From an uncultured SAR86 cluster bacterium (GTDB taxonomy: Bacteria > Pseudomonadota > Gammaproteobacteria > Magnimaribacterales > D2472), in assembly GCA_902538705.1 (NCBI GenBank), contig CACBGD010000005.1, positions 1-56,414 of the forward strand: a stretch of 56,414 nucleotides of DNA, written 5' to 3'. Below are positions 37,084 through 56,414 of the stretch, piece after piece. The notes beneath the pieces are model-generated. The model had not been told where the DNA came from. It ran no database searches and saw nothing but the letters and a program-made list of their open reading frames with translations. How positions within the stretch are numbered: the stretch's first letter is position 1; each line of letters starts with the position of its first letter. The position numbers and the translations under genes are program-made.

Positions 37084-38343
37084 TTGGAAAAATTGTTAAT
37101 AAAGGGTGGAAAAAGTCTTTCTGGTGAAATTGATTGTTCCGGAGCAAAAAATGCTGCTTTGCCTGTAATTGCTGCATCAATTCTTTCATCCGATGATATA
37201 ACTCTCAAAAATCTTCCATATCTTCAAGATATTACAACTATGTTTGAACTTATAGGCTCGATGGGAGCTGATATTTCTCTTGATGAAAGAATGAATTTTA
37301 AACTCAATACCTCAAACCTATCTAATCTTGAAGCTAGATATGAGTTAGTTAAAACAATGCGAGCTTCTATCTTAGTTCTTGGATCAATGATAGCAAAATA
37401 TGGATATGCAAAAATTGCATTGCCTGGTGGTTGTGCAATTGGAAGCCGCCCAGTAGATTATCATCTCAAAGCTCTTGAAAAACTTGGTGCAAATATTTCA
37501 CTCAAAAATGGATACATAGAGGCTAAAACAGACAAGCTTGTAGGAGCAAACATAGAATTTGAAGGTGTAACTGTAACTGGAACTGAGAATCTAATTATGG
37601 CGGCATCATTGGCAAAAGGAGTTTCTATTCTTACAAATGTTGCTAAAGAGCCTGAAATTTTAGATTTAGCAAATTTTTTGAATTCTATGGGGGCTAAGAT
37701 TTCAGGTGCAGGAACAGATAAAATTATAGTAGAGGGTGTAGAAGAATTGAGTGGCACAACTTATGAAATTCCTGCAGATAGAATTGAAGCAGGTACATAT
37801 CTTATAGCAGGTGCTGTTACCAATGGGAATATTACTATCAATAAGATAGATCCAGAAAGAATGGGTGCAATCATAGAAAATCTTAAAAAAGCTGGAGCTG
37901 AAGTTATATCAAATGGAAAATCCATATCTTTAAATATGACAAATCATATTTTAAAACCTGTAAACATCATTACAGCTCCATTTCCAGGATTCCCAACAGA
38001 TATGCAAGCTCAATTTACAGTCCTTAATTGTATGGGGCAAGGTGAATCGCGAGTGAAAGAGACAATATTTGAAAATAGGTTTATGCATATCCAAGAACTG
38101 AATAGAATGGGTACAAATATCAGAATAGATGGAACCACAGCTATTATAAATGGTGTTGATTCAATTTCTGGAGCTCAAGTTATGGCAACAGATTTACGGG
38201 CCTCTGCAAGCTTAATACTTGCAGGATTAGTAGCAAAGGGAGAAACTATAGTCGATCGAATTTATCACATTGATAGGGGTTATGAGAGAATAGAAGAGAA
38301 GCTATCGAATCTTGGCGCCGAAATATTAAGATTACCTAATTAG
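37084..38343 (+). CDS. murA: UDP-N-acetylglucosamine 1-carboxyvinyltransferase MurA
   Basis: A 419-residue enzyme, the E. coli length, adding enolpyruvate to UDP-GlcNAc as the first committed peptidoglycan step. The catalytic, fosfomycin-target Cys is in LPGGCAIGSRPVDYH (~113-127). The substrate residues GAKNAALP (~22-29), TDMQAQF (~303) and the late DRIYHIDRGYERIE (~394-407) are intact. The start codon is TTG at 37084, directly after the ibaG stop. Translation is probably coupled and kept low. The end overlaps degS by 8 nt. Confidence 0.97.
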   Translation: MEKLLIKGGKSLSGEIDCSGAKNAALPVIAASILSSDDITLKNLPYLQDITTMFELIGSMGADISLDERMNFKLNTSNLSNLEARYELVKTMRASILVLGSMIAKYGYAKIALPGGCAIGSRPVDYHLKALEKLGANISLKNGYIEAKTDKLVGANIEFEGVTVTGTENLIMAASLAKGVSILTNVAKEPEILDLANFLNSMGAKISGAGTDKIIVEGVEELSGTTYEIPADRIEAGTYLIAGAVTNGNITINKIDPERMGAIIENLKKAGAEVISNGKSISLNMTNHILKPVNIITAPFPGFPTDMQAQFTVLNCMGQGESRVKETIFENRFMHIQELNRMGTNIRIDGTTAIINGVDSISGAQVMATDLRASASLILAGLVAKGETIVDRIYHIDRGYERIEEKLSNLGAEILRLPN

Positions 38344-44371: not shown

Positions 44372-44983
44372 ATGATTTTATATTCAGAGAGGGACAATCA
44401 TTATAGCCATAGGGTAAGAATAGTTCTTGCCGAAAAAGATATAGCATGTGAAATTAGGGAATTTGACATTGAAGAGGCGCCAGATGACGTACTTTCTTTG
44501 AGTCCTTATCATAAACTACCAATTCTTGTTGACAGAGACTTAGGTTTATATGATACCGCTGTAATAATGGAATATCTTGATGAAAGATTCCCTCATCCAC
44601 CTTTACTTCCAGTTTACCCAGTTGCTAGAGCCAACTGTAGAGAGCTAATGTTAAGAATTGATAGGGAATGGTGCCCACTCGTTGACTCAATTATTTTTGA
44701 TAAACTTACAAAGGCAAAAGAAAAAAAGATTAAGGAAGAACTTGCTCAAGAGCTTGCAACGATTTCACCAATCTTCAAGGAATTTCCTTTTTTTATGAAC
44801 GAAGACTTTACTCTCGTTGACTGTTATTTGGCTCCGATAATGTGGAGATTAGTATCTATGGGAATTAACCTTCCTTATAACAAACAACTCAAACCCCTTT
44901 TGGATTACCAAAATAAAATCTTTGAAAGACCTGGCTTTATCGATAGCTTAACAACAATCGAAAAAGATCTTAGAGCCGATTAA
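44372..44983 (+). CDS. sspA: Stringent starvation protein A (GST-like)
   Basis: A 203-residue glutathione-S-transferase-fold protein. The thioredoxin-like half has LYSERDNHYSHRVRIVLAEKDI and LPILVDRDLGLYDTAVIMEYLDERFPHPPLLP (~50-80). The all-helical half contains FTLVDCYLAPIMWRL (~148-162). SspA binds RNA polymerase in E. coli and affects stress and phage genes. The rpsI-petABC-sspA order fits pseudomonads; sspB does not follow. Its end overlaps the convergent lpoA-like gene by 14 nt. Confidence 0.92.
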   Translation: MILYSERDNHYSHRVRIVLAEKDIACEIREFDIEEAPDDVLSLSPYHKLPILVDRDLGLYDTAVIMEYLDERFPHPPLLPVYPVARANCRELMLRIDREWCPLVDSIIFDKLTKAKEKKIKEELAQELATISPIFKEFPFFMNEDFTLVDCYLAPIMWRLVSMGINLPYNKQLKPLLDYQNKIFERPGFIDSLTTIEKDLRAD

Positions 44984-45935
44984 ATTTGCCCTGACTATCG
45001 ATTTTCACTACAGCCATATCCATATCGGAGCAACTATTTTGTGAGTATCTAATATTAGCAAATTTACCTATGATCATTTGTGAATTTTCATTATCTTTTT
45101 TAATTGCTGATATGAGCAATAGATCCTGCAAAAATGACAGCTTTGCTAATTCGTTGAGATCTGATAAATCGTCCTCTATAAATGAGTTTGGCACTGCAAG
45201 AATTACCTCAGAAAAGTCTAATAATTTTTTTCTATCCACTATTCTAGTGACTGATTTAGAGGATACATAAATTGGTTTTTTTAAAATGAAGTTAAATTTC
45301 AATGAAGGTACTAAGTTTTTTGATTGATCATAGCCAGCAAGAATGTAGATCTTCTCAAAATCTTCTCTAGGTCTTGGCACAAAATTAATTTCTTCCTCCT
45401 GAATCAATCTGTTTATTAAATCTGCTCTGTCATAGCTTCCTGATAACTGGAATACTCTTTTAACAAGTTCATCATAGTCACCATCAAGTTTAATGATTCT
45501 TACCCCTGGATAGTTTTTCTTCATAAGGTCAGCACTAGACTTGAATTTCTCACCATAAAAAACAAAAACTTCGTCATTTTTTTGGAAGTCAAATAAATAT
45601 TGTTTTGTTATTTCCTCAAGATAATCATTTGCACTCTTGCAGAAATAAGCGAACTCTTGATTGAGGAAATTATTTTTTATTACAAGAGTTTCATTATCAA
45701 CCTGCTCGACGAAATTTATTCTTATATCTGCATCTAAAGAAATTACTGATTTGATTACAAGCTCCTTAACTTCCTCCTTAGCATTAATTTTCATCTCAAC
45801 ACTTCCTATATCATTCAGTAGCTCATCTAGCTGATCACTCTTTGAGACATCAATTAATTGAGTTGATGAGCAACCAAGAAAAAAAAAGCAAATACAGCTT
45901 ATAATTGCTAGATTATTAAGATTTATTGTTCCCAC
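44970..45935 (-). CDS. LpoA-like (LppC/YraM family) outer-membrane lipoprotein, short form
   Basis: A 321-residue putative lipoprotein. A hydrophobic start ends in the lipobox FFLGCSS (Cys near 22). The C-terminal half shows the periplasmic-binding-protein-like LpoA pattern: VPRPREDFEKIYILAGYDQSKNLVPSLKFNF then KPIYVSSKSV. In E. coli LpoA (678 residues) activates PBP1A. Here the N-terminal TPR half is missing or reduced, so activation by the same mechanism is uncertain. The start codon appears to be GTG 45935, only 2 nt from the divergent rsmI start. That neighbourhood matches yraM/yraL and supports the call. Confidence 0.75.
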   Translation of the reverse strand: MGTINLNNLAIISCICFFFLGCSSTQLIDVSKSDQLDELLNDIGSVEMKINAKEEVKELVIKSVISLDADIRINFVEQVDNETLVIKNNFLNQEFAYFCKSANDYLEEITKQYLFDFQKNDEVFVFYGEKFKSSADLMKKNYPGVRIIKLDGDYDELVKRVFQLSGSYDRADLINRLIQEEEINFVPRPREDFEKIYILAGYDQSKNLVPSLKFNFILKKPIYVSSKSVTRIVDRKKLLDFSEVILAVPNSFIEDDLSDLNELAKLSFLQDLLLISAIKKDNENSQMIIGKFANIRYSQNSCSDMDMAVVKIDSQGKFNRL

Positions 45936-46782: not shown

Positions 46783-47110
46783 CGAGTTGGTCGGATGATC
46801 GCTGGGAAATCCAGAGGAAAGTCCGGACTTCATGAGCAAAGTGCCAGGTAACTCCTGGGAGACGTGAGTCTACGGAAAGTGCAGCAGAAAATATACCGCC
46901 TTAGGGTAAGGGTGAAAAGGTGAGGTAAGAGCTCACCGCATGAATGGAGACATTGCATGGCAGTGCAAACCCCGCTTGAAGCAAGACCAAATAGGAGCTC
47001 AACAGAAATGCTCATTCTGAGCTCGGGTAGGTCGCTAGAGTATTATGGCAACATAATATCGAGATAGATGATCATCTTGAACAGAATCCGGCTTATAGAC
47101 CAACTCACAT
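46783..47110 (+). ncRNA. rnpB: RNase P RNA (class A)
   Basis: The conserved blocks of bacterial RNase P RNA are in order. P1 is GAGTTGGTC (46784-46792) pairing with GACCAACTC (47098-47106). Then come GAGGAAAGTCCGGAC (~46813), GTGCCAGGTAACTCCTGGGAG, AGGTAAGGGTGAAAAGGTGAGG, GCAAGACCAAATAGG, GGGTAGG, and CAGAATCCGGCTTATAG (~47081). About 325 nt. The outer ends are set from P1, with a few nt of uncertainty. Confidence 0.96.
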
Positions 47111-47118
47111 TTCTAGCA

Positions 47119-47180: not shown

Positions 47181-47648
47181 ATGTTTGGCTTTAATAACAT
47201 TTCTTTAGACAGCAAGAGTAGGTTTTCATTCCCTGCTAAATACAGAGATGCTTTTATTAATTCAAATGAAAATCAAATAGTTATTACAAAAGATCCTCAA
47301 TATCCTGCACTTAAGGTCTACTTTGGCAGTGAATGGGATCAAATTTCTAAAAAGCTTTCTTCCTTACAAGGCTTAGATCCAATAGTAAGGAATTTACAAT
47401 GGACAATTCTGGGTAATGCAAGTGTATGTGATTTTAAACCTAGTGGGAGAATGCAGGTTTTAATTTCCTCTGATCTTAAAAAATATGCTCACATTGAGAA
47501 TGCAAACAGAATATGCTTAATAGGAATGGGCAATAAGTTTGAAATTTGGAATCAAGAAAATTGGGAGCAAAGACAGACTGGAGGAAGTCTTGCAACAGAG
47601 ATCCTAGATATTGTTCTTCCAGAATCTATAAAGGATATGAGTTTTTAG
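47181..47648 (+). CDS. mraZ: Transcriptional regulator MraZ
   Basis: A 155-residue protein with two SpoVT/AbrB-like half-domains. The first is FGFNNISLDSKSRFSFPAKYRDAF, with the DxKxR pattern that contacts DNA; the second is ASVCDFKPSGRMQVLISSDLKKYAHI. It represses the dcw operon in E. coli. It opens the cluster, as usual, but is followed by ftsZ instead of rsmH. No Shine-Dalgarno is seen; the promoter lies directly before the ATG. Confidence 0.95.
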   Translation: MFGFNNISLDSKSRFSFPAKYRDAFINSNENQIVITKDPQYPALKVYFGSEWDQISKKLSSLQGLDPIVRNLQWTILGNASVCDFKPSGRMQVLISSDLKKYAHIENANRICLIGMGNKFEIWNQENWEQRQTGGSLATEILDIVLPESIKDMSF

Positions 47649-47660
47649 GGGGGAGAAGAG

Positions 47661-48782
47661 ATGAATTGGGAAGTTGTAAATGACATCGATCAAGCAAAAA
47701 TAAAAGTTATTGGGGTGGGTGGTGCCGGAGGCAATGCTGTGATCCACATGATGAATCACAAAATCCAAGGCGTTGAATTTATATGCGCTAATACAGATTC
47801 GCAGGCCTTAGAGAATGCTAAGGGCGCCACTATTTTAAAGCTTGGAGGTGGAATGACTAAAGGTCTTGGTGCCGGAGCAAATCCTGAAGTTGGCAGACAA
47901 GCTGCTGAGAGAGATAGAGAAGCAATTGAACAGCTTCTTCATGGCTCAGATATGATTTTTATAACCGCTGGCATGGGTGGTGGAACAGGAACTGGAGCTG
48001 CGCCAGTAATAGCATCAATTGCAAAAGAATTAGGTGCTTTAACAGTTGCTGTAGTTACAAAACCATTTAAGTTTGAAGGTAAACCAAGAATGAGCTCAGC
48101 TGAAAAAGGTCTTGCTGCCCTTGTTGAAGAAGTTGACAGTTTGATAACAATTCCGAATCAAAAACTAATAGATGTTCTTGGAGCAAATACACCAATTCCA
48201 GAAGCTTTTGCGCAAGCAGATGATGTACTAAAAGGTGCTGTTCAAGGGATCTCAGACATAATTATGAAACCAGGACTCATTAATGTTGACTATGCTGATG
48301 TTAAAACGGTCATGTCAGAAAAAGGAATTGCGATGATGGGAACCGGAAGATCAAATACAAAAGACCGCGGAAGGGATGCAGCAGAGTTAGCTGTTGGAAG
48401 TGAGCTTCTCGAGGATATAAATTTAAAAGATGCAAGAGGTGTGCTAGTAAATATTTCTGCAAAAGATCCAACAATGGGAGATTTTACCGAGGTAAGTGAA
48501 GTTGTTGAAGAATTTACTGCTGATGATGCTACATGCATTTATGGACTCGTAATTGATCCATCTCTTAAAGACGAATTGATGGTTACGATTGTTGCAACAG
48601 GCGTAAATCAGAAATCTCCTAAGCTTGCCATAGATAGCAAACCAAGAGCATCTATTAAGCTCTCACCAGTTGGGTTAGATAAAGATCACACAAACAAAGA
48701 AGTTCAACAAGTTGGTACATCGTCTGCAGAGGCAATTGATTTCCTCGATGTACCAACTTTTATGAGAAAGCAAGTAGATTAA
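47661..48782 (+). CDS. ftsZ: Cell division protein FtsZ
   Basis: A 373-residue tubulin homologue forming the Z ring. Nucleotide loops: IKVIGVGGAGGNAVIHM (~15-31), ANTDSQAL, the tubulin signature GMGGGTGTGAAPVIA (~104-118), and the T7-loop region INVDYADVKTVMSEKG (~207-222). The C-terminal tether ends in DVPTFMRKQVD, the conserved peptide that binds FtsA, ZipA and MinC. A very strong GGGGGGAGAAGAG precedes the ATG. The gene normally closes the dcw cluster after ftsA; here it is second, before rsmH. No key residue is missing. Confidence 0.98.
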   Translation: MNWEVVNDIDQAKIKVIGVGGAGGNAVIHMMNHKIQGVEFICANTDSQALENAKGATILKLGGGMTKGLGAGANPEVGRQAAERDREAIEQLLHGSDMIFITAGMGGGTGTGAAPVIASIAKELGALTVAVVTKPFKFEGKPRMSSAEKGLAALVEEVDSLITIPNQKLIDVLGANTPIPEAFAQADDVLKGAVQGISDIIMKPGLINVDYADVKTVMSEKGIAMMGTGRSNTKDRGRDAAELAVGSELLEDINLKDARGVLVNISAKDPTMGDFTEVSEVVEEFTADDATCIYGLVIDPSLKDELMVTIVATGVNQKSPKLAIDSKPRASIKLSPVGLDKDHTNKEVQQVGTSSAEAIDFLDVPTFMRKQVD

Positions 48783-49682: not shown

Positions 49683-49942
49683 TGAAAAGTTATTTTTTAC
49701 CTATGATCTTTTTACAACTGGTAATAATTACCTACTTATCCTTTATTCTCGTTGATGTCAGATGGCAGATTAGATCTGGTTTTAAAATACAAGAAAATCT
49801 TAATAGTCAAAATCAAGAACTACAAAACCTTTACTACAAACTTTTAACAGAAGAATTTTTTCTTAACTCTCCGGCAAGGATTGAAAAGAAAGCTAAGGAG
49901 GATCTTGGCATGATCAAAGTAAGGCCAGAGACAATCAAATGA
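49682..49942 (+). CDS. ftsL: Cell division protein FtsL
   Basis: An 86-residue bitopic protein: one TM helix (~5-24) followed by a short coiled coil (QENLNSQNQELQNLYYKLLTEE) and the family ending of SPARIEKKAKEDLGM. It forms the FtsQLB complex that activates FtsWI. The assignment rests on this layout and the position between rsmH and ftsI, with ATG overlaps on both sides. Confidence 0.93.
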   Translation: MKSYFLPMIFLQLVIITYLSFILVDVRWQIRSGFKIQENLNSQNQELQNLYYKLLTEEFFLNSPARIEKKAKEDLGMIKVRPETIK

Positions 49943-51552
49943 ATGCCTATTATAAAAATTGGAGATTATTTTTAATATTATTTTTTCTATTCTTATCTAT
50001 TTCAGTAATCTTTATTCGAATGATTTATATTCAAATTGAGGAGGGCAGTTTTCTTCTTCAAAAAGGAAATAGTCAAAATACTTCAGAGAGAGTAATAGAA
50101 TTCAAGCGAGGATCAATTTTTGATAAAAATGGAATTCCTCTTGCAATAAGCGTTACAGGTTTTGATTTATTTGCATTGAGTGGTCTTAGTGAAGAAGAGT
50201 TTATAAAAATTCAAAATACTCTAGACCTAAACAATTTGGAGTATAAATCCTTCAATAAAAAATCATTAATAAAGAGATCATTATCTTTTGAACAAATGAG
50301 AAAAATCAAATCTCTTAAAATAGATAGATTAGAACTTGAGAAGACTTATAAACGCCACTACCCATTGGGAGAGCAGGTTTCTCCCTTAGTAGGATTTTCA
50401 GGAAGAGATGGATATGGTCTAGAAGGTTTGGAAAAGAGCTATAACTCGACTTTAACTGGTAAGCCTATAAAAGAGAGAGTTCTAAAAGATGGAGCAAGAA
50501 GTACAATACAAAGGCTTGAAATCTTAGAATTTGGAGAAAAATCTAGAGATATCTATTTAACTATAGATAGTAATATTCAATATATTGCATATAAATATCT
50601 CGTAGAGGCTATTAAAAACAATGATGGAACTGCAGGCACAGTTATTATCCTTGATAATTTTGCTAGAGAAGTCTTAGCTCTCGCTAGTTACCCTTCATAT
50701 AATCCAAATAATCCAATGAGAAGGATAAAAAAAAATAGGGTTTTTTTAGAAAGTTATGAACCAGGATCAATTGTAAAACCATTAGCTCTTGCAGGAGCTA
50801 TTGAGAGCGGTCTCATTGAAATTGATACTGAGATGACATTACCAATCAAGATTGAAATTGATGGAAGTATTATCAATGACAGAAAGAAATATGGACAACT
50901 TAAAGCATTTGAAGTGATAAAAGAATCTAGTCAAGTAGGAGCAACTCAGATTTCATTTCTTTTAGGAGCAGAAAGGCTAATTGATAATTATAAAAAGTTT
51001 GGATTTTCTAAACCTGTCAGTATTAATTTTCCCTCTACTTCGTTTGGTGAGATTAACTCTAGAGAAAAGATTTCTGATATTGAAATAGCAACACTTGGTT
51101 ATGGCTATGGACTAACAGCGACACCATTCCAAATCTCCCAAGCATATGCAATATTTGCAAATAATGGAATCTACCATGACTTTAGAATAATCAAAGATAG
51201 TGAATTTCCAATTTTCTCAGAGCAAATTATTAGTGAATCAACTGCTAAAGATATTTTATATTCTATGAAAGAAGTCGTTGATAATGGAACAGGAATCCTG
51301 GCGAAGTCAGAAAATTATAATGTCAGCGGCAAAACAGGAACAACAGAAAAATTAAGAGATGGCAATTATAAAAGCTCAACCTACACTGCATCATTTATTG
51401 GAATTGGACCAAATCCTTCAAATGAGCTGACTATTTTTGTGAACATTGATGGCCTAGGATCCCAAAAATATTCTGGTGGATCTGTTGCGGCCCCGCTTTT
51501 TAAAAAGATTTCTAATGACGTTTTTAGTTATATGGGATATTTCAATAAGTGA
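49939..51552 (+). CDS. ftsI: Peptidoglycan D,D-transpeptidase FtsI (PBP3) with altered SxN motif
   Basis: A 537-residue class B penicillin-binding protein. N-terminal TM (~9-28), a non-catalytic pedestal with RGSIFDKNGIPLA (~57-69), then the transpeptidase domain. The nucleophile motif SxxK is Ser277-Lys280 (PGSIVK), and KTG is at 465-467. The second motif, expected as SxN, reads Ser330-Ser331-Gln332. The Asn of SxN contacts the substrate in this family, so Gln is a notable change. It overlaps ftsL by 4 nt and ends 4 nt before the murE remnant. Confidence 0.95.
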   Translation: MNAYYKNWRLFLILFFLFLSISVIFIRMIYIQIEEGSFLLQKGNSQNTSERVIEFKRGSIFDKNGIPLAISVTGFDLFALSGLSEEEFIKIQNTLDLNNLEYKSFNKKSLIKRSLSFEQMRKIKSLKIDRLELEKTYKRHYPLGEQVSPLVGFSGRDGYGLEGLEKSYNSTLTGKPIKERVLKDGARSTIQRLEILEFGEKSRDIYLTIDSNIQYIAYKYLVEAIKNNDGTAGTVIILDNFAREVLALASYPSYNPNNPMRRIKKNRVFLESYEPGSIVKPLALAGAIESGLIEIDTEMTLPIKIEIDGSIINDRKKYGQLKAFEVIKESSQVGATQISFLLGAERLIDNYKKFGFSKPVSINFPSTSFGEINSREKISDIEIATLGYGYGLTATPFQISQAYAIFANNGIYHDFRIIKDSEFPIFSEQIISESTAKDILYSMKEVVDNGTGILAKSENYNVSGKTGTTEKLRDGNYKSSTYTASFIGIGPNPSNELTIFVNIDGLGSQKYSGGSVAAPLFKKISNDVFSYMGYFNK

Positions 51553-51556
51553 AAAT

Positions 51557-51691
51557 ATGCAAAAAAATAAAGAAGTTATAAATAAAAGTGGAATCTTAAA
51601 GATTATCGGAAGAAAGCCTGAGGTATTCCCAGAAATAAATGGAACTAAGAGACTGTTTAGTGATCAAATAGTTGTGGAGGATATGTTATGA
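51557..51691 (+). pseudogene. murE: murE remnant: only the last 44 codons remain
   Basis: murE (UDP-MurNAc-tripeptide synthetase, ~490 residues) should lie between ftsI and murF. Only a 44-codon frame is found there. Its end, EINGTKRLFSDQIVVEDML, matches the usual MurE C terminus (E-I-x-G-x-K-x-x-F-S-D-x-x-V), and NKSGILKIIGRKPEVF aligns with the segment holding GKGHE. That motif is now GRKPE. All ATP- and substrate-binding domains are gone. GGAGG and an ATGA overlap with murF at its end may still serve murF translation. The homology is my reading by eye. Confidence 0.65.
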
Positions 51692-53019
51692 AATTTATTT
51701 CTAACACAAATGACATTAGGAAATATCTTGGCTTAAAGTCAAAAAATAATATTAAATTCAACAATATTTCAATTGATACTAGAACTATAAAAAAAGATTC
51801 ACTATTTATTGCTCTAAAAGGAGAAAATTTCAATGGAAATAAATTCATTGAAAAAGCTTTTGCTTCTGGAGCAAGTGCTGTCTTATGTTCCAATAAAGCA
51901 TATAAAAATAAAAATAATGCTATCTACGTTCCAAGTGTAAGAGATGCTCTTTCAAAGATTTCATCGAATATTGCATCTGATTTTCAAGGAAAGAAAATAT
52001 TGATTACTGGTAGTAATGGAAAAACGTCAACAACTAGTATCCTCTCTAAGTCACTCCCTAAATGTTCATCAACCATAAGAAATTTTAATAATGAAATTGG
52101 CCTTCCAATTAGCATAATGTCTGCAAAAAAAGATAGTAGGTATATTGTTTTGGAGGCTGGAGCAGCAAAAAAAGGGGATATTGAATATTTATCAAAGCTT
52201 GTGAAGCCTGATATTGGAATAATTACAAATATTGGGTATTCTCATTTAGAAAAACTTTTAAATTTGGAAGGAGTTTTTAAAGTTAAGTCTGAGCTTATAA
52301 AGAACATTCGTAAAGGTGGCACTCTAATAGTTCCAAATGATTTGAGATATCTTGAGAGATGGAAAAAAATGGCAAAAGGGATAAAGGTTCTCCCTGTTCC
52401 TAATAAATATATTGCAACTAAAGAAAAATTCAGTGGCGATGGTAGGATAATGACTTTTGATATCATCGAAAAACCTGCAGGAAATAAAAAATCAGTAGTT
52501 ATTCCTATTTCTTCATCATTAATAGGTAAGCATAATGTGCAAAATATTCTTGTATGCCATTCATGTTTGAATGAGCTTGGTGAGAGTAATTCAATGATGC
52601 TTAAATCTTTAAGAAAAATATCAAGCTCTATTTCAAGACAGAGAATTATTTCATGGAGAAACAATTCAACATTGATCGATGATACATACAATGCAAATCC
52701 AGAATCGGTTAAGAGAAGTATAGATGTTTTGTCAGAATTTTCCGGTAGAAAGATTTTCATATTTGGAGATATGTTTGAGTTAGGTAGGTACAGAAAAAAA
52801 TTACATGTTGATATAGGTTCTTATGCAAATAAGTCCAAGATTGACATTCTCATAACTTTTGGAGATCTCTCCAAGAATGCATCTAGTAGATTTCGAAAGA
52901 AATCATATAATTTTCTCAATGAAGATCAACTTAGAGATTTTATTATTAATTTTGTTAAAAAAAATGATATTGTTTTGATAAAGGGATCAAGGGGAATGAA
53001 AATGGAGAGGTTTATATAA
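51688..53019 (+). CDS. murF: UDP-MurNAc-tripeptide:D-alanyl-D-alanine ligase MurF
   Basis: A 443-residue Mur ligase. N-terminal UMAG domain with FNNISIDTRTIKKDSLFIALKG (~24-45); ATP loop ITGSNGKTSTT (~107-117); NFNNEIGLPIS, specific to MurF; the Lys-x-Lys pair in GVFKVKSELI; KHNVQN; and DDTYNANPES (~332-341), also diagnostic. It adds D-Ala-D-Ala to the tripeptide made by MurC, D and E. GGAGG stands 7 nt before the ATG. A GAAKKG replaces the usual GANHxG. It is intact although its upstream partner murE is not. Confidence 0.94.
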   Translation: MKFISNTNDIRKYLGLKSKNNIKFNNISIDTRTIKKDSLFIALKGENFNGNKFIEKAFASGASAVLCSNKAYKNKNNAIYVPSVRDALSKISSNIASDFQGKKILITGSNGKTSTTSILSKSLPKCSSTIRNFNNEIGLPISIMSAKKDSRYIVLEAGAAKKGDIEYLSKLVKPDIGIITNIGYSHLEKLLNLEGVFKVKSELIKNIRKGGTLIVPNDLRYLERWKKMAKGIKVLPVPNKYIATKEKFSGDGRIMTFDIIEKPAGNKKSVVIPISSSLIGKHNVQNILVCHSCLNELGESNSMMLKSLRKISSSISRQRIISWRNNSTLIDDTYNANPESVKRSIDVLSEFSGRKIFIFGDMFELGRYRKKLHVDIGSYANKSKIDILITFGDLSKNASSRFRKKSYNFLNEDQLRDFIINFVKKNDIVLIKGSRGMKMERFI

Positions 53020-54104
53020 TGTTTGAATATCTTGGTACCGTATTAGTAGATATTGATCCTGGTTTTGATGTTCTTAGATATCTTACTGTTCGAACAATTG
53101 GAGGCACGGTAACGGCATTATTATTGTCAATATTCTTAGGTCCTAAATTGATTAATTGGCTGCAGATGATGCAATTTAGACAATTTGGAGTTGAGAGAGG
53201 TCCTGATTCCCATAAAGAAAAGTCTGGTACTCCAACAATGGGCGGATTACTTATTATCTCTTCATTGCTTATATCCACTTTATTGTGGACAGATTTGGGA
53301 AATAGATATATTTGGGTTTGTCTTTTTATTACATTAGGCTTTACGCTTATAGGATTTTTTGATGATTTCTCAAAAATAAAACATAAAGACTCAAAAGGTA
53401 TTTCAGGAAGATCGAAACTTTTGCTTCAAACTTTAGTTTCATTGATCGCTGTAAGCTTCTTATTCTTCACTGCCGAAGATCAAGCTGAAATATCATTAAT
53501 ACTCCTTTTTAATAAAGATTGGATTTTTGAAATGAGTATGTTTGCTTTTATTTTGTTTGGCTCCTTTGTAATTGTTGCCTCTTCAAATGCAGTAAATTTA
53601 ACTGATGGTCTTGACGGCTTAGCAATTTTACCAACTATTTTAATAAGCGGAGGCCTTGGCTTGATAGCTTATGCAATGGGAAACCAATTAATCGCAGAAT
53701 ATTTGTTTATACCTCATTTACAAATTGCTGGAGAGCTTATCGTATTCTGTGGAGCACTAATAGGTTCGGGTATAGGTTTCTTATGGTATAACTCATATCC
53801 TGCAGAAGTTTTTATGGGAGATGTTGGCTCACTAACTCTTGGAGCAATCCTAGGAGTTCTTGCTGTAATTCTGAGACACGAAATAGTTTATGCAATTATG
53901 GCAGGAGTTTTTATAGTCGAAACCTTAAGTGTGATGATCCAAGTGATTTCCTACAGATATAGACAAAAAAGAGTTTTTTTAATGGCACCAATTCATCATC
54001 ATTTTGAGTTGAAAGGATGGGCTGAACCTAAAATCATTGTAAGATTCTGGATTATTACACTAGTGTTAATTTTAGTTGCGCTTGCAACACTTAAATTGAG
54101 GTAA
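53019..54104 (+). CDS. mraY: Phospho-MurNAc-pentapeptide-transferase MraY
   Basis: A 361-residue enzyme with ten predicted TM helices, making lipid I from UDP-MurNAc-pentapeptide and undecaprenyl phosphate. Active-site motifs: HKEKSGTPTMGG (~67-78), FFDDFSK (~117), NAVNLTDGLDGLAI (~190-203), FMGDVGSL (~266) and HHHFE (~325). Length and sequence are close to E. coli MraY (360). All catalytic Asp and His residues are present. It overlaps the murF stop by 1 nt (TAATG). Confidence 0.97.
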   Translation: MFEYLGTVLVDIDPGFDVLRYLTVRTIGGTVTALLLSIFLGPKLINWLQMMQFRQFGVERGPDSHKEKSGTPTMGGLLIISSLLISTLLWTDLGNRYIWVCLFITLGFTLIGFFDDFSKIKHKDSKGISGRSKLLLQTLVSLIAVSFLFFTAEDQAEISLILLFNKDWIFEMSMFAFILFGSFVIVASSNAVNLTDGLDGLAILPTILISGGLGLIAYAMGNQLIAEYLFIPHLQIAGELIVFCGALIGSGIGFLWYNSYPAEVFMGDVGSLTLGAILGVLAVILRHEIVYAIMAGVFIVETLSVMIQVISYRYRQKRVFLMAPIHHHFELKGWAEPKIIVRFWIITLVLILVALATLKLR

Positions 54105-54184
54105 GAGTTCATGTCATTTCATGTCTATAGCTAGGGTAACAAGTAATTCATTTGAAATTTTACTTTTTAGTAGAGGCAATAATT

Positions 54185-55291
54185 TTGGAATTTAAAAGCA
54201 ATAATTTTCAAATCCTTTTTGCTTTTGTTCTTTTGCTCACTTTTGGAGAAATTATGGTCCTTTCATCTAGCATGATCAGGGCTGAATCAATTTATGATAA
54301 TCCTTTCTTCTTTGCCTCTAGACAAGCTATCTTTATATCAATTGGATTTTTAATTTTTTGTTTCTTTCTTCTTGTTCCATCAGATTTATTAAGAAGATTT
54401 GATTGGCTATTTCTCATGATGTCTCTAATACTGCTTGTTGCATTATTTTTTCCTGGAGTTGGGACTGAAGTGAATGGCAGTATGAGATGGATAAGATTCG
54501 GACCAATAAATATCCAACCATCTGAGGTTGCAAAGTTTTGTATGCTTATATATATATCAGGATATTGTGTGAGAAGACTTGAAGAAATATCATCAGCGTT
54601 TGGTTTTATTAAGCCCCTTCTAATTTTAACCCTATTTGCATCACTTATATTAATTCAGCCAGATTATGGATCAACAGCCATTCTCTGTTTAATTGTAATG
54701 GCTCTACTTTTTTTTGCTGGCATATCTTTTTATCAATTTTTAATTTTGATAATACTTTTTATAATTCTTAGTGCAATTGCTATATTTTTGGAACCGTACA
54801 GGTTGATAAGACTGCTTAGTTTTATTGATCCCTTTGAGGATATACAAGATAGTGGTTGGCAGCTTGCTCAATCTCTAATTAGTTTAGGCCAAGGAGGTTG
54901 GATTGGCTTAGGGCTTGGGAATAGCATTCAAAAGAATCTTTTTTTACCCGAGGCACATACAGATTTTATCTTTGCAATATTGGTTGAGGAGCTTGGAATA
55001 TTAGGAGGCCTACTTCTTATTGTTTTATATTTGTCTTTAATAATAGGAGTTTTTAAAGTCTCGTTTGAATCATTTAATAAAATAAGACCTTTTCAAGGAT
55101 ATCTATGTTTTGGAATAGGATTTTTAATTTCACTTCAAGTTATTTTAAATATTGGTGTAAATATTGGCCTACTTCCAACCAAAGGACTCACTCTTCCATT
55201 TATTAGTTATGGAGGTACAAGTCTGCTTGTAATGATGAGCCTAATAGCTATAGTTGTTAGGATAAATAACGAAAATAAATTTTATAAATGA
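54185..55291 (+). CDS. ftsW: Peptidoglycan glycosyltransferase FtsW
   Basis: A 368-residue SEDS-family polymerase of the divisome with about ten TM helices. Motifs: GTEVNGSMRWIRFGPINIQPSEVAKF (~95-120 region), IQPDYGSTAIL, LPEAHTDFIFAILVEELG with the catalytic-type Asp, and the late LPFISYGGTSLL. I prefer TTG 54185 because GAGG lies 8 nt upstream; a TTG at 54152 is the other option and no ATG is available before the first helix. murD should separate it from mraY, but only 80 nt are present. It ends 4 nt into murG. Confidence 0.95.
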   Translation: MEFKSNNFQILFAFVLLLTFGEIMVLSSSMIRAESIYDNPFFFASRQAIFISIGFLIFCFFLLVPSDLLRRFDWLFLMMSLILLVALFFPGVGTEVNGSMRWIRFGPINIQPSEVAKFCMLIYISGYCVRRLEEISSAFGFIKPLLILTLFASLILIQPDYGSTAILCLIVMALLFFAGISFYQFLILIILFIILSAIAIFLEPYRLIRLLSFIDPFEDIQDSGWQLAQSLISLGQGGWIGLGLGNSIQKNLFLPEAHTDFIFAILVEELGILGGLLLIVLYLSLIIGVFKVSFESFNKIRPFQGYLCFGIGFLISLQVILNIGVNIGLLPTKGLTLPFISYGGTSLLVMMSLIAIVVRINNENKFYK

Positions 55292-56331
55292 AAAATATTA
55301 TTATTTGTGCTGCAAAAACAGGTGGACATATTTTTCCAGCACTAAGTTTTTCAAAAGAGGCATTAAAAAATAATAATAGAATTACATTCATAGGAACCAA
55401 CACTGAGCTTGAGAAGAAGATTTTTTTACAAAATGAGAATATAAAATTTATTAAATTTGATTTAGATGGATTTAGAGGGAAAGGCATAAGTCAAAAGCTA
55501 GCCTTTTTAACAAGACTGCCGCTGATATTTGTTCAAGTTATCTCAATAATTGTTTCAAAGAACATATCTTCGGTCTTTTGTTTTGGTGGATTTATTACAA
55601 TACCCGTAGGTTTTGCTAGTATTGTCACATTCAGAAATCTATATCTTCATGAACAAAACTCAATAGTCGGCTCTTCAAATAAACTGTTATCAGTATTTGC
55701 AAAAAAGATTTTCACTGCATTTCCTATTAGCGATAATAAAAAATATTTCTTTACTGGAAACCCTATAAATTTTCAAAAGAAAAGAGGTATCAAAATATGC
55801 AAAAATGATGACTTAAATATTCTTGTCACTGGCGGCAGCCAAGGGGCAGATTTTATTAATAAGCATATTCCCACTGTACTCAATAGAATTGAATCTAAAT
55901 TTAATGTTATTCATCAGTGCGGGCTAAATAAGCTTGAGAATGTTACAAACTATAACCAAAAAATAAATGCATCTATCTTTGAATTTATAGATAATTTGGA
56001 TGAATACATTGAGTGGTGTGACTTTGTTATATGTAGATGCGGAGCAGGCACATTAAGTGAGATTTCACAAAAAATGAAGGGCATGGTAATGATTCCTCTT
56101 CCTCAATCAATTGATAATCATCAATACTTTAATGCACTCTTTTATGAAAAAAATTGTCAAGGTAAGATTTTTGAAGAGAAAGATTCTCTTGAAAATCTAT
56201 CTGACCTGCTTGATAGCATAATTCATGAAAATTCTTATGAAGATTGGAAAAAAGTAAAGCCACCAATTGATCACATGCGGGCAACTGCTTTAATGTTGAG
56301 TGAAATGCGGAAAGATAATGCAGCATCTTAA
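55288..56331 (+). CDS. murG: UDP-GlcNAc--lipid I GlcNAc transferase MurG
   Basis: A 347-residue GT-B enzyme that forms lipid II. Recognised by TGGHIFPALS (11-20), DGFRGKGIS, LHEQNSIVGSSNK, VTGGSQGADFIN (~178), CRCGAGTLSE (~246) and DNHQYFNA (~272). Several usual residues differ: the first loop is AAKTGGH where A-G-G-T-G-G-H is expected (Ala9, Lys10), and GNPVR has become GNPIN. The fold and the UDP-binding C-terminal loops look intact, but activity is less certain than for MraY. It overlaps the ftsW stop (ATGA) and the next ORF. Confidence 0.92.
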   Translation: MKNIIICAAKTGGHIFPALSFSKEALKNNNRITFIGTNTELEKKIFLQNENIKFIKFDLDGFRGKGISQKLAFLTRLPLIFVQVISIIVSKNISSVFCFGGFITIPVGFASIVTFRNLYLHEQNSIVGSSNKLLSVFAKKIFTAFPISDNKKYFFTGNPINFQKKRGIKICKNDDLNILVTGGSQGADFINKHIPTVLNRIESKFNVIHQCGLNKLENVTNYNQKINASIFEFIDNLDEYIEWCDFVICRCGAGTLSEISQKMKGMVMIPLPQSIDNHQYFNALFYEKNCQGKIFEEKDSLENLSDLLDSIIHENSYEDWKKVKPPIDHMRATALMLSEMRKDNAAS

Positions 56332-56414
56332 AAAAATAAAAGATATCTACTTTATAGTTATTGAAAGATTTTGGACGATGATAATTGCTGCAATTCTTTA
56401 TGATAGAGGATTTA
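56318..56414 (+). CDS. murC: Presumed start of murC with a destroyed glycine-rich loop (3' truncated by window edge)
   Basis: An ATG overlapping the murG end opens a 32-codon frame running off the window. Position after murG, the start HLKKIKDIYFI and the IAAILYDRG helix fit the MurC N terminus. The stretch between them, expected as a GIGGxGMxG nucleotide loop of the same length, reads V-I-E-R-F-W-T-M-I: every glycine is lost while the flanks are kept. It may be a decayed murC, sequencing error at a contig end, or an unrelated membrane protein. Too little is visible to decide. Confidence 0.4.
   Translation, partial: MQHLKKIKDIYFIVIERFWTMIIAAILYDRGF

Follow-up and report, generated by a model that had tools for sequence, protein, structure and literature searches.

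In the streamlined genome of an uncultured SAR86 cluster bacterium, murE, murD and murC have eroded and each has left a scar, one of them being the slot between ftsI and murF. Of murE only the 3′ end is left and of murD about 50 nt, murC is broken at its start, and the assembly contains no other copy of these genes. Few essential enzymes of walled bacteria are conserved as widely as MurC, MurD and MurE, which also serve as antibiotic targets. The best reading of these losses, which we consider probable, is that the ligase Mpl bypasses the eroded murC-murD-murE steps and that salvaged muropeptides are needed. We also lean towards the proposal of a stem-tripeptide auxotrophy, in which Mpl would be essential and murC, murD and murE would have been lost at least twice in the genus, with one case still eroding.

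Genomic context

The window, meaning the whole stretch of 56,414 nucleotides that was analysed, is the entire contig 5 of a metagenome-assembled genome (MAG), here called G000 (0.998 Mb, 35 contigs, 80% complete). From position 47181 it carries the dcw cluster in the order mraZ, ftsZ, rsmH, ftsL, ftsI, a 135-bp slot, murF, mraY, ftsW and murG; the contig stops 83 bases past murG (Table 1). In 12/12 family genomes compared, ftsZ (window 47661–48782; loci L063–L073) is flanked by mraZ and rsmH at the beginning of the cluster, instead of following ftsA at the cluster end. An RNase P RNA (RF00010, 309 bits) is located at 46783–47111, between rsmI and mraZ. The complementary strand at 44970–45935 encodes a lipoprotein-like protein of 321 amino acids that had no match in a Pfam search and stands beside rsmI throughout the family, a position reminiscent of LpoA in other gammaproteobacteria.

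Table 1. Coordinates of wall-synthesis genes, relics and the ribosome-binding site in the window
Feature	Position	Strand	Remarks
murA (UDP-GlcNAc enolpyruvyl transferase), intact	37084..38343	+	first committed step; 50% identity to E. coli MurA
ftsI (PBP3), intact	49939..51552	+	upstream flank; dN/dS 0.06-0.07
murE 3′ relic	51555..51691	+	44-codon open frame 51557-51691; DNA alignment to sister murE, dN/dS
GGAGG Shine-Dalgarno	51676..51680	+	now before murF; before 195-aa gene in sisters
murF, intact	51688..53019	+	TIGR01143 354.8 bits (cut-off 288.6); dN/dS 0.11-0.15
mraY, intact	53019..54104	+	dN/dS 0.05
murD 5′ relic	54108..54157	+	about 50 nt; 74% identity to G004 murD start, z 8.3
ftsW, intact	54185..55291	+	start set by alignment to sisters
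murG, intact	55288..56331	+	dN/dS 0.10-0.17
murC relic	56318..56414	+	first ca. 32 codons, then contig end; 71-74% DNA identity over 103 nt

Relics of murE, murD and murC

The slot holds an open reading frame of 44 codons that begins 4 nt past the ftsI stop. Alignment with the intact murE 3′ ends of the sister genomes G002, G004 and G005 gave 79–81% DNA identity over 119–137 nt, with scores of 130–134 as compared to 30–32 ± 5 for shuffled sequences, and the murE 3′ end of G008 aligned with 75% identity over 117 nt (score 107). The z values of the relic alignments to sister murE are 15–21. In frame, the relic LKIIGRKPEVFPEINGTKRLFSDQIVVEDML aligns with LLILGKGHEEFQEIKGTKIPFNDQRVVEEIL of intact murE. 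The GKGHE motif of the C-terminal domain, which is conserved in 7/7 sister MurE proteins, reads GRKPE in the relic and is thereby lost. The sister-type murE start codon and the body of the gene are gone, and the 44-codon frame uses a different start codon. A Pfam profile search of the 44-aa product produced no match, and so none to the three Mur ligase domains (N, the ATP-binding central one and the C-terminal one), which is expected because the piece is too short; its identity was settled by the DNA alignments to sister murE, which were positive. No protein above the cut-off of TIGR01085 (MurE) is encoded anywhere in the G000 assembly. On the evidence of these alignments and the shared synteny, the slot is confirmed as what remains of the 3′ end of a murE orthologous to that of the sisters, and its product is not a working MurE. 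The original prediction, which had read the frame as the C-terminal end of MurE with GKGHE changed to GRKPE and the catalytic domains gone, agrees with all of these results. It had noticed the loss of murE and missed that murD, murC and a 195-aa gene (see below) are gone or broken as well, so that the loss is wider than was proposed.

Sisters and outgroups have an intact murD between mraY and ftsW, and what is left of it in G000 belongs to the 5′ end; the matches to G005 and G008 are weaker (z about 4) than the one to G004. The MurD proteins of the family are themselves short (341–350 aa, for example sister locus L063:13011-14045), and of the Mur ligase central domain, which has 200 positions, they match only the first ca. 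115–133. The murC relic aligns to sister murC with z values of 15–17, and its motif, GIGGSGM in six sisters and GIGGAGM in two outgroups, has become VIERFWTM.

The genome is a MAG, and contig ends, such as the one with the murC relic, are more prone to error. An artefact of assembly or binning was considered, such as a collapsed repeat, a chimeric join or the inclusion of a minor strain. We regard this as very improbable. Substitutions and indels are scattered over all three relics, which are 69–81% identical to the sister genes and show no clean cut, and this speaks against a simple assembly deletion; the flanking genes are intact and syntenic, and the independent genome G006 is without the same three genes inside one contig.

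Mur ligases in related genomes

Nine congeners (G001–G009) were compared, and a set of 61 genomes was used for the order. Seven of the nine (G001–G005, G008 and G009) have an intact murE encoding 474 aa at the place between ftsI and murF, in the gene orders ftsI-murE-195aa-murF and mraY-murD-ftsW, which differ in G000 and G006. Sisters with a complete operon possess five proteins with the Mur ligase central domain PF08245 (MurC, MurD, MurE, MurF and Mpl), whereas G000 and G006 have two each, MurF and Mpl; the scan of G000 thus yielded no murE elsewhere in the assembly. In G006 a single contig carries ftsI, a gene for a 204-aa homologue of the 195-aa protein, murF, mraY, ftsW, murG, ddl and ftsQ, in this order, and the uninterrupted operon contains no murC, murD or murE and no visible scars of them. 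This genome (82% complete) retains MurA, MurB, Mpl, MurF, MraY, MurG, Ddl, AmpG and AmpD. Its MurF (L090:1177-2703) is a protein of 517 amino acids with only 42% identity to the congeneric proteins and a TIGR01143 score of 282.1 bits, below the cut-off of 288.6, while its MraY is 84% identical.

A tree of nine operon proteins has the topology (G006,(G008,(G000,(G004,...)))), in which G006 is the deepest branch among the genus members having this locus. The branch joining the other eight members without G006 has support of 100/100, and the placement of G000 relative to G008 is weaker (83/75); the exact depth of G006 is less sure because its branch is long. G000 and G006 do not form a clade, and two changes are needed in all sampled bootstrap trees. 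Accordingly, murC, murD and murE appear to have been lost twice, separately on the tree, within one genus. Throughout the order, murE is kept in 40/40 genomes of at least 90% completeness. Among murE-negative genomes, G026 and G031 were not counted as losses because their operons are cut by contig ends, and G030, G035 and G060 were left out for want of a near full-length murF match.

The three genes, absent from G006 and either absent or broken in G000, could also have been relocated or replaced, with the operon copies decaying afterwards. At about 80% completeness, either genome may hold copies in its unassembled part, and ddl and murB are likewise missing from the G000 assembly. Such a relocation would have to occur twice, with all three replacements falling into gaps each time, and the sisters with a full set have a single copy of each Mur ligase and no spares; we therefore rate it as unlikely.

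G007 was considered as a third case of loss and rejected, since its contig begins within ddl and the genome also lacks murF and mraY, which was treated as an assembly gap. The ddl of this genome is 92% identical to that of G005, and its Mpl is only 65% identical (loci G007:C26:2-883, L202, and L091), an inconsistency that points to recombination or to an error in binning.

The 195-aa gene and translation of murF

In G001–G005, G008 and G009, murE is followed by a gene for a protein of 194–195 amino acids (for example L004:914-1501 and L010:917-1501) and then by murF. Across the genus the gene before murF encodes 194–204 amino acids; the homologue in G006 (L090) is 69% identical, and dN/dS values are 0.04–0.07. 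The protein matches no Pfam or NCBIfam family, and the gene does not occur at the ftsI-murF place in three outgroup genera. From the G000 slot the whole gene has been deleted, and it was not found elsewhere in the G000 assembly.

The relic overlaps murF in TTATGA (ATGA), and the GGAGG sequence stands 7 nt upstream of the murF ATG, both as first described for this locus. In the sisters GGAG(G) at the end of murE is the ribosome-binding site of the 195-aa gene, and sister murF is preceded only by an AAAGAAA-type sequence with no clear Shine-Dalgarno. The 195-aa gene may have been lost between the similar starts ATGAAATATAT and ATGAAATTTAT, which would have placed murF behind GGAGG. With murF now behind this sequence, a role in murF initiation is plausible for the last ca. 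15 nt of the relic. We propose two main reasons for the persistence of the murE tail, namely the recency of the loss and the Shine-Dalgarno at the relic end, which murF uses.

The original prediction went further and saw the 44-codon frame as retained in translational coupling, perhaps surviving only to start murF translation. As an explanation this would make the frame a selected, translated leader coupling ftsI to murF, which fits its start close behind the ftsI stop, the ATGA overlap and the position of GGAGG, and which is compatible with the Mpl reading. Comparison of the relic with intact murE tails, however, gave dN/dS values of 0.34–0.90, as compared to 0.03–0.29 among the intact tails, and the frame would stay open by chance under random substitution in 12–25% of cases. 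Selection on the frame as a peptide is thus unsupported, the start codon is not that of murE, and the terminal ca. 15 nt suffice to explain initiation of murF. A coupling leader appears quite unlikely for these reasons; of the earlier proposal, the role of the GGAGG/ATGA end in starting murF translation is plausible and that of the whole frame is not supported.

Retained enzymes and the proposed Mpl route

The genes that remain in G000 are constrained. For ftsZ, rsmH, ftsI, murF, mraY, ftsW and murG, dN/dS values of 0.01–0.17 were obtained, near those between sisters, which indicates purifying selection and a downstream wall pathway that appears to be in use. A lineage giving up peptidoglycan entirely, with the remaining pathway also decaying, could account for the loss of several essential wall genes and for the absence of MurB and Ddl from the G000 assembly. 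It would not predict the dN/dS of 0.05–0.17, like that of the sisters, for murF, mraY, murG, ftsW, ftsI and mpl, nor that G006, on a long branch without murCDE, still keeps the rest of the pathway, and we consider it hardly credible.

The steps lost in both lineages are exactly those that Mpl can bypass. The Mpl proteins of G000 and G006 score 426.0 and 422.8 bits with TIGR01081 (equivalog cut-off 388.7), and both reach 258 with the MurC model, below its cut-off of 335.1. In G000 mpl is located on contig 6 and has dN/dS values of 0.10–0.12. An alternative source of UDP-MurNAc-tripeptide, which the original prediction held to be needed, thus has a candidate. Because Mpl is found in most of the order it predates the losses, and as Mpl and the transporters also occur in relatives keeping murCDE, they enable the loss and do not mark it.

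Of the recycling genes, G000 keeps those for AmpG, AmpD and Mpl, with ampG and ampD adjacent on contig 17. Contig 4 encodes an Opp-type binding protein and two permeases. This binding protein shares 36% identity with E. coli OppA and 34% with MppA; being slightly nearer OppA, it is at most a candidate for an MppA-type specific tripeptide importer, and the tripeptide specificity of the transporter is only putative. Against the Mpl reading stand the missing MurB and Ddl in G000 and the missing LdcA in the order. MurB and Ddl, not found in the 80%-complete G000 assembly, are both present in G006; murB is likewise missing from G008 (78% complete), and the G000 contig ends before ddl. LdcA (PF02016) was found above the cut-off in 0/61 genomes of the order, even though the genus has AmpG, AmpD and Mpl. 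Tetrapeptides must then be trimmed by some other enzyme, unless the tripeptide arrives ready-made; being absent order-wide, LdcA is uninformative as a discriminating marker. The same holds for the glutamate racemase MurI (TIGR00067), which none of the 61 genomes has, even where MurD is present. As the sisters have murD and no MurI, D-Glu must come from another enzyme, for example a DapF with racemase activity such as that of Chlamydia (PMC5885031).

In the proposed route, MurA and MurB would form UDP-MurNAc, to which Mpl would attach ready-made L-Ala-γ-D-Glu-mDAP, bypassing MurC, MurD and MurE. MurF would then add D-Ala-D-Ala, and MraY, MurG, FtsW and FtsI would finish the wall. The ligation of the tripeptide by Mpl in recycling is known (PMC3060825), and in E. 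coli exogenous L-Ala-D-Glu-A2pm enters the wall via Mpl, which is inhibited in mpl mutants (PMC10862554). The tripeptide would stem from AmpG/AmpD recycling and from exogenous muropeptides or peptides, with AmpG and AmpD or the Opp-type transporter as candidate entry routes. Turnover gives back no more than the cell possessed before, so for net growth other cells should have to supply tripeptide or muropeptides, and G000 probably depends on salvaged cell-wall fragments.

If the Mpl reading is correct, the Mpl shortcut can carry wall synthesis, and a recycling enzyme known as dispensable would be essential in streamlined bacteria. Wall peptides would be shared goods in the habitat, and small-genome bacteria could outsource part of their wall. 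The cells should take up and need L-Ala-γ-D-Glu-mDAP or muropeptides, which may offer a cultivation aid.

Comparison with known systems

A literature search, covering mainly titles and abstracts and few subscription papers, revealed no report in which precisely murC, murD and murE are lost and Mpl is kept. The sister operons of G001–G005, G008 and G009 share the neighbourhood and gene order of G000, but unlike G000 they keep murC, murD, murE and the 195-aa gene between murE and murF.

Fidelibacter multiformis IA91, a cultured, muropeptide-dependent bacterium of the class AB16 (Fidelibacterota, formerly Marinimicrobia/SAR406), is reported to be missing peptidoglycan synthesis genes and to keep recycling genes, as does its class (PMC11652737). 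The SAR86 case is similar in that synthesis genes appear to be lost, recycling genes are kept, and fragments of other bacteria would be required, the dependence being shown for Fidelibacter (PMC11652737) and proposed here. According to the same source, IA91, from an unrelated phylum, is unable to make MurNAc, D-Ala, D-Glu, DAP and lysine (PMC11652737). Unlike in IA91, in the SAR86 genomes only the MurC-D-E steps appear to be lost, MurA is kept (as are MurB and Ddl in G006), the relics are still readable, and the loss seems to have happened twice within one genus.

Similar to the SAR86 case, Tannerella forsythia is reported to be a walled organism with a partial cytoplasmic precursor pathway that needs its neighbours' fragments, with involvement of AmpG (PMC7670621, PMC5388701). 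It is without MurA and MurB and scavenges MurNAc (PMC7670621, PMC5388701), whereas the SAR86 genomes retain the steps that make the sugar and appear to have lost those that build the peptide. The Mpl recycling of E. coli and Psychrobacter involves the same ligase family and the reaction that we propose here (PMC3060825, PMC10862554). In those organisms Mpl is dispensable and acts beside MurC, MurD and MurE (PMC3060825, PMC10862554), whereas here it would be the only route.
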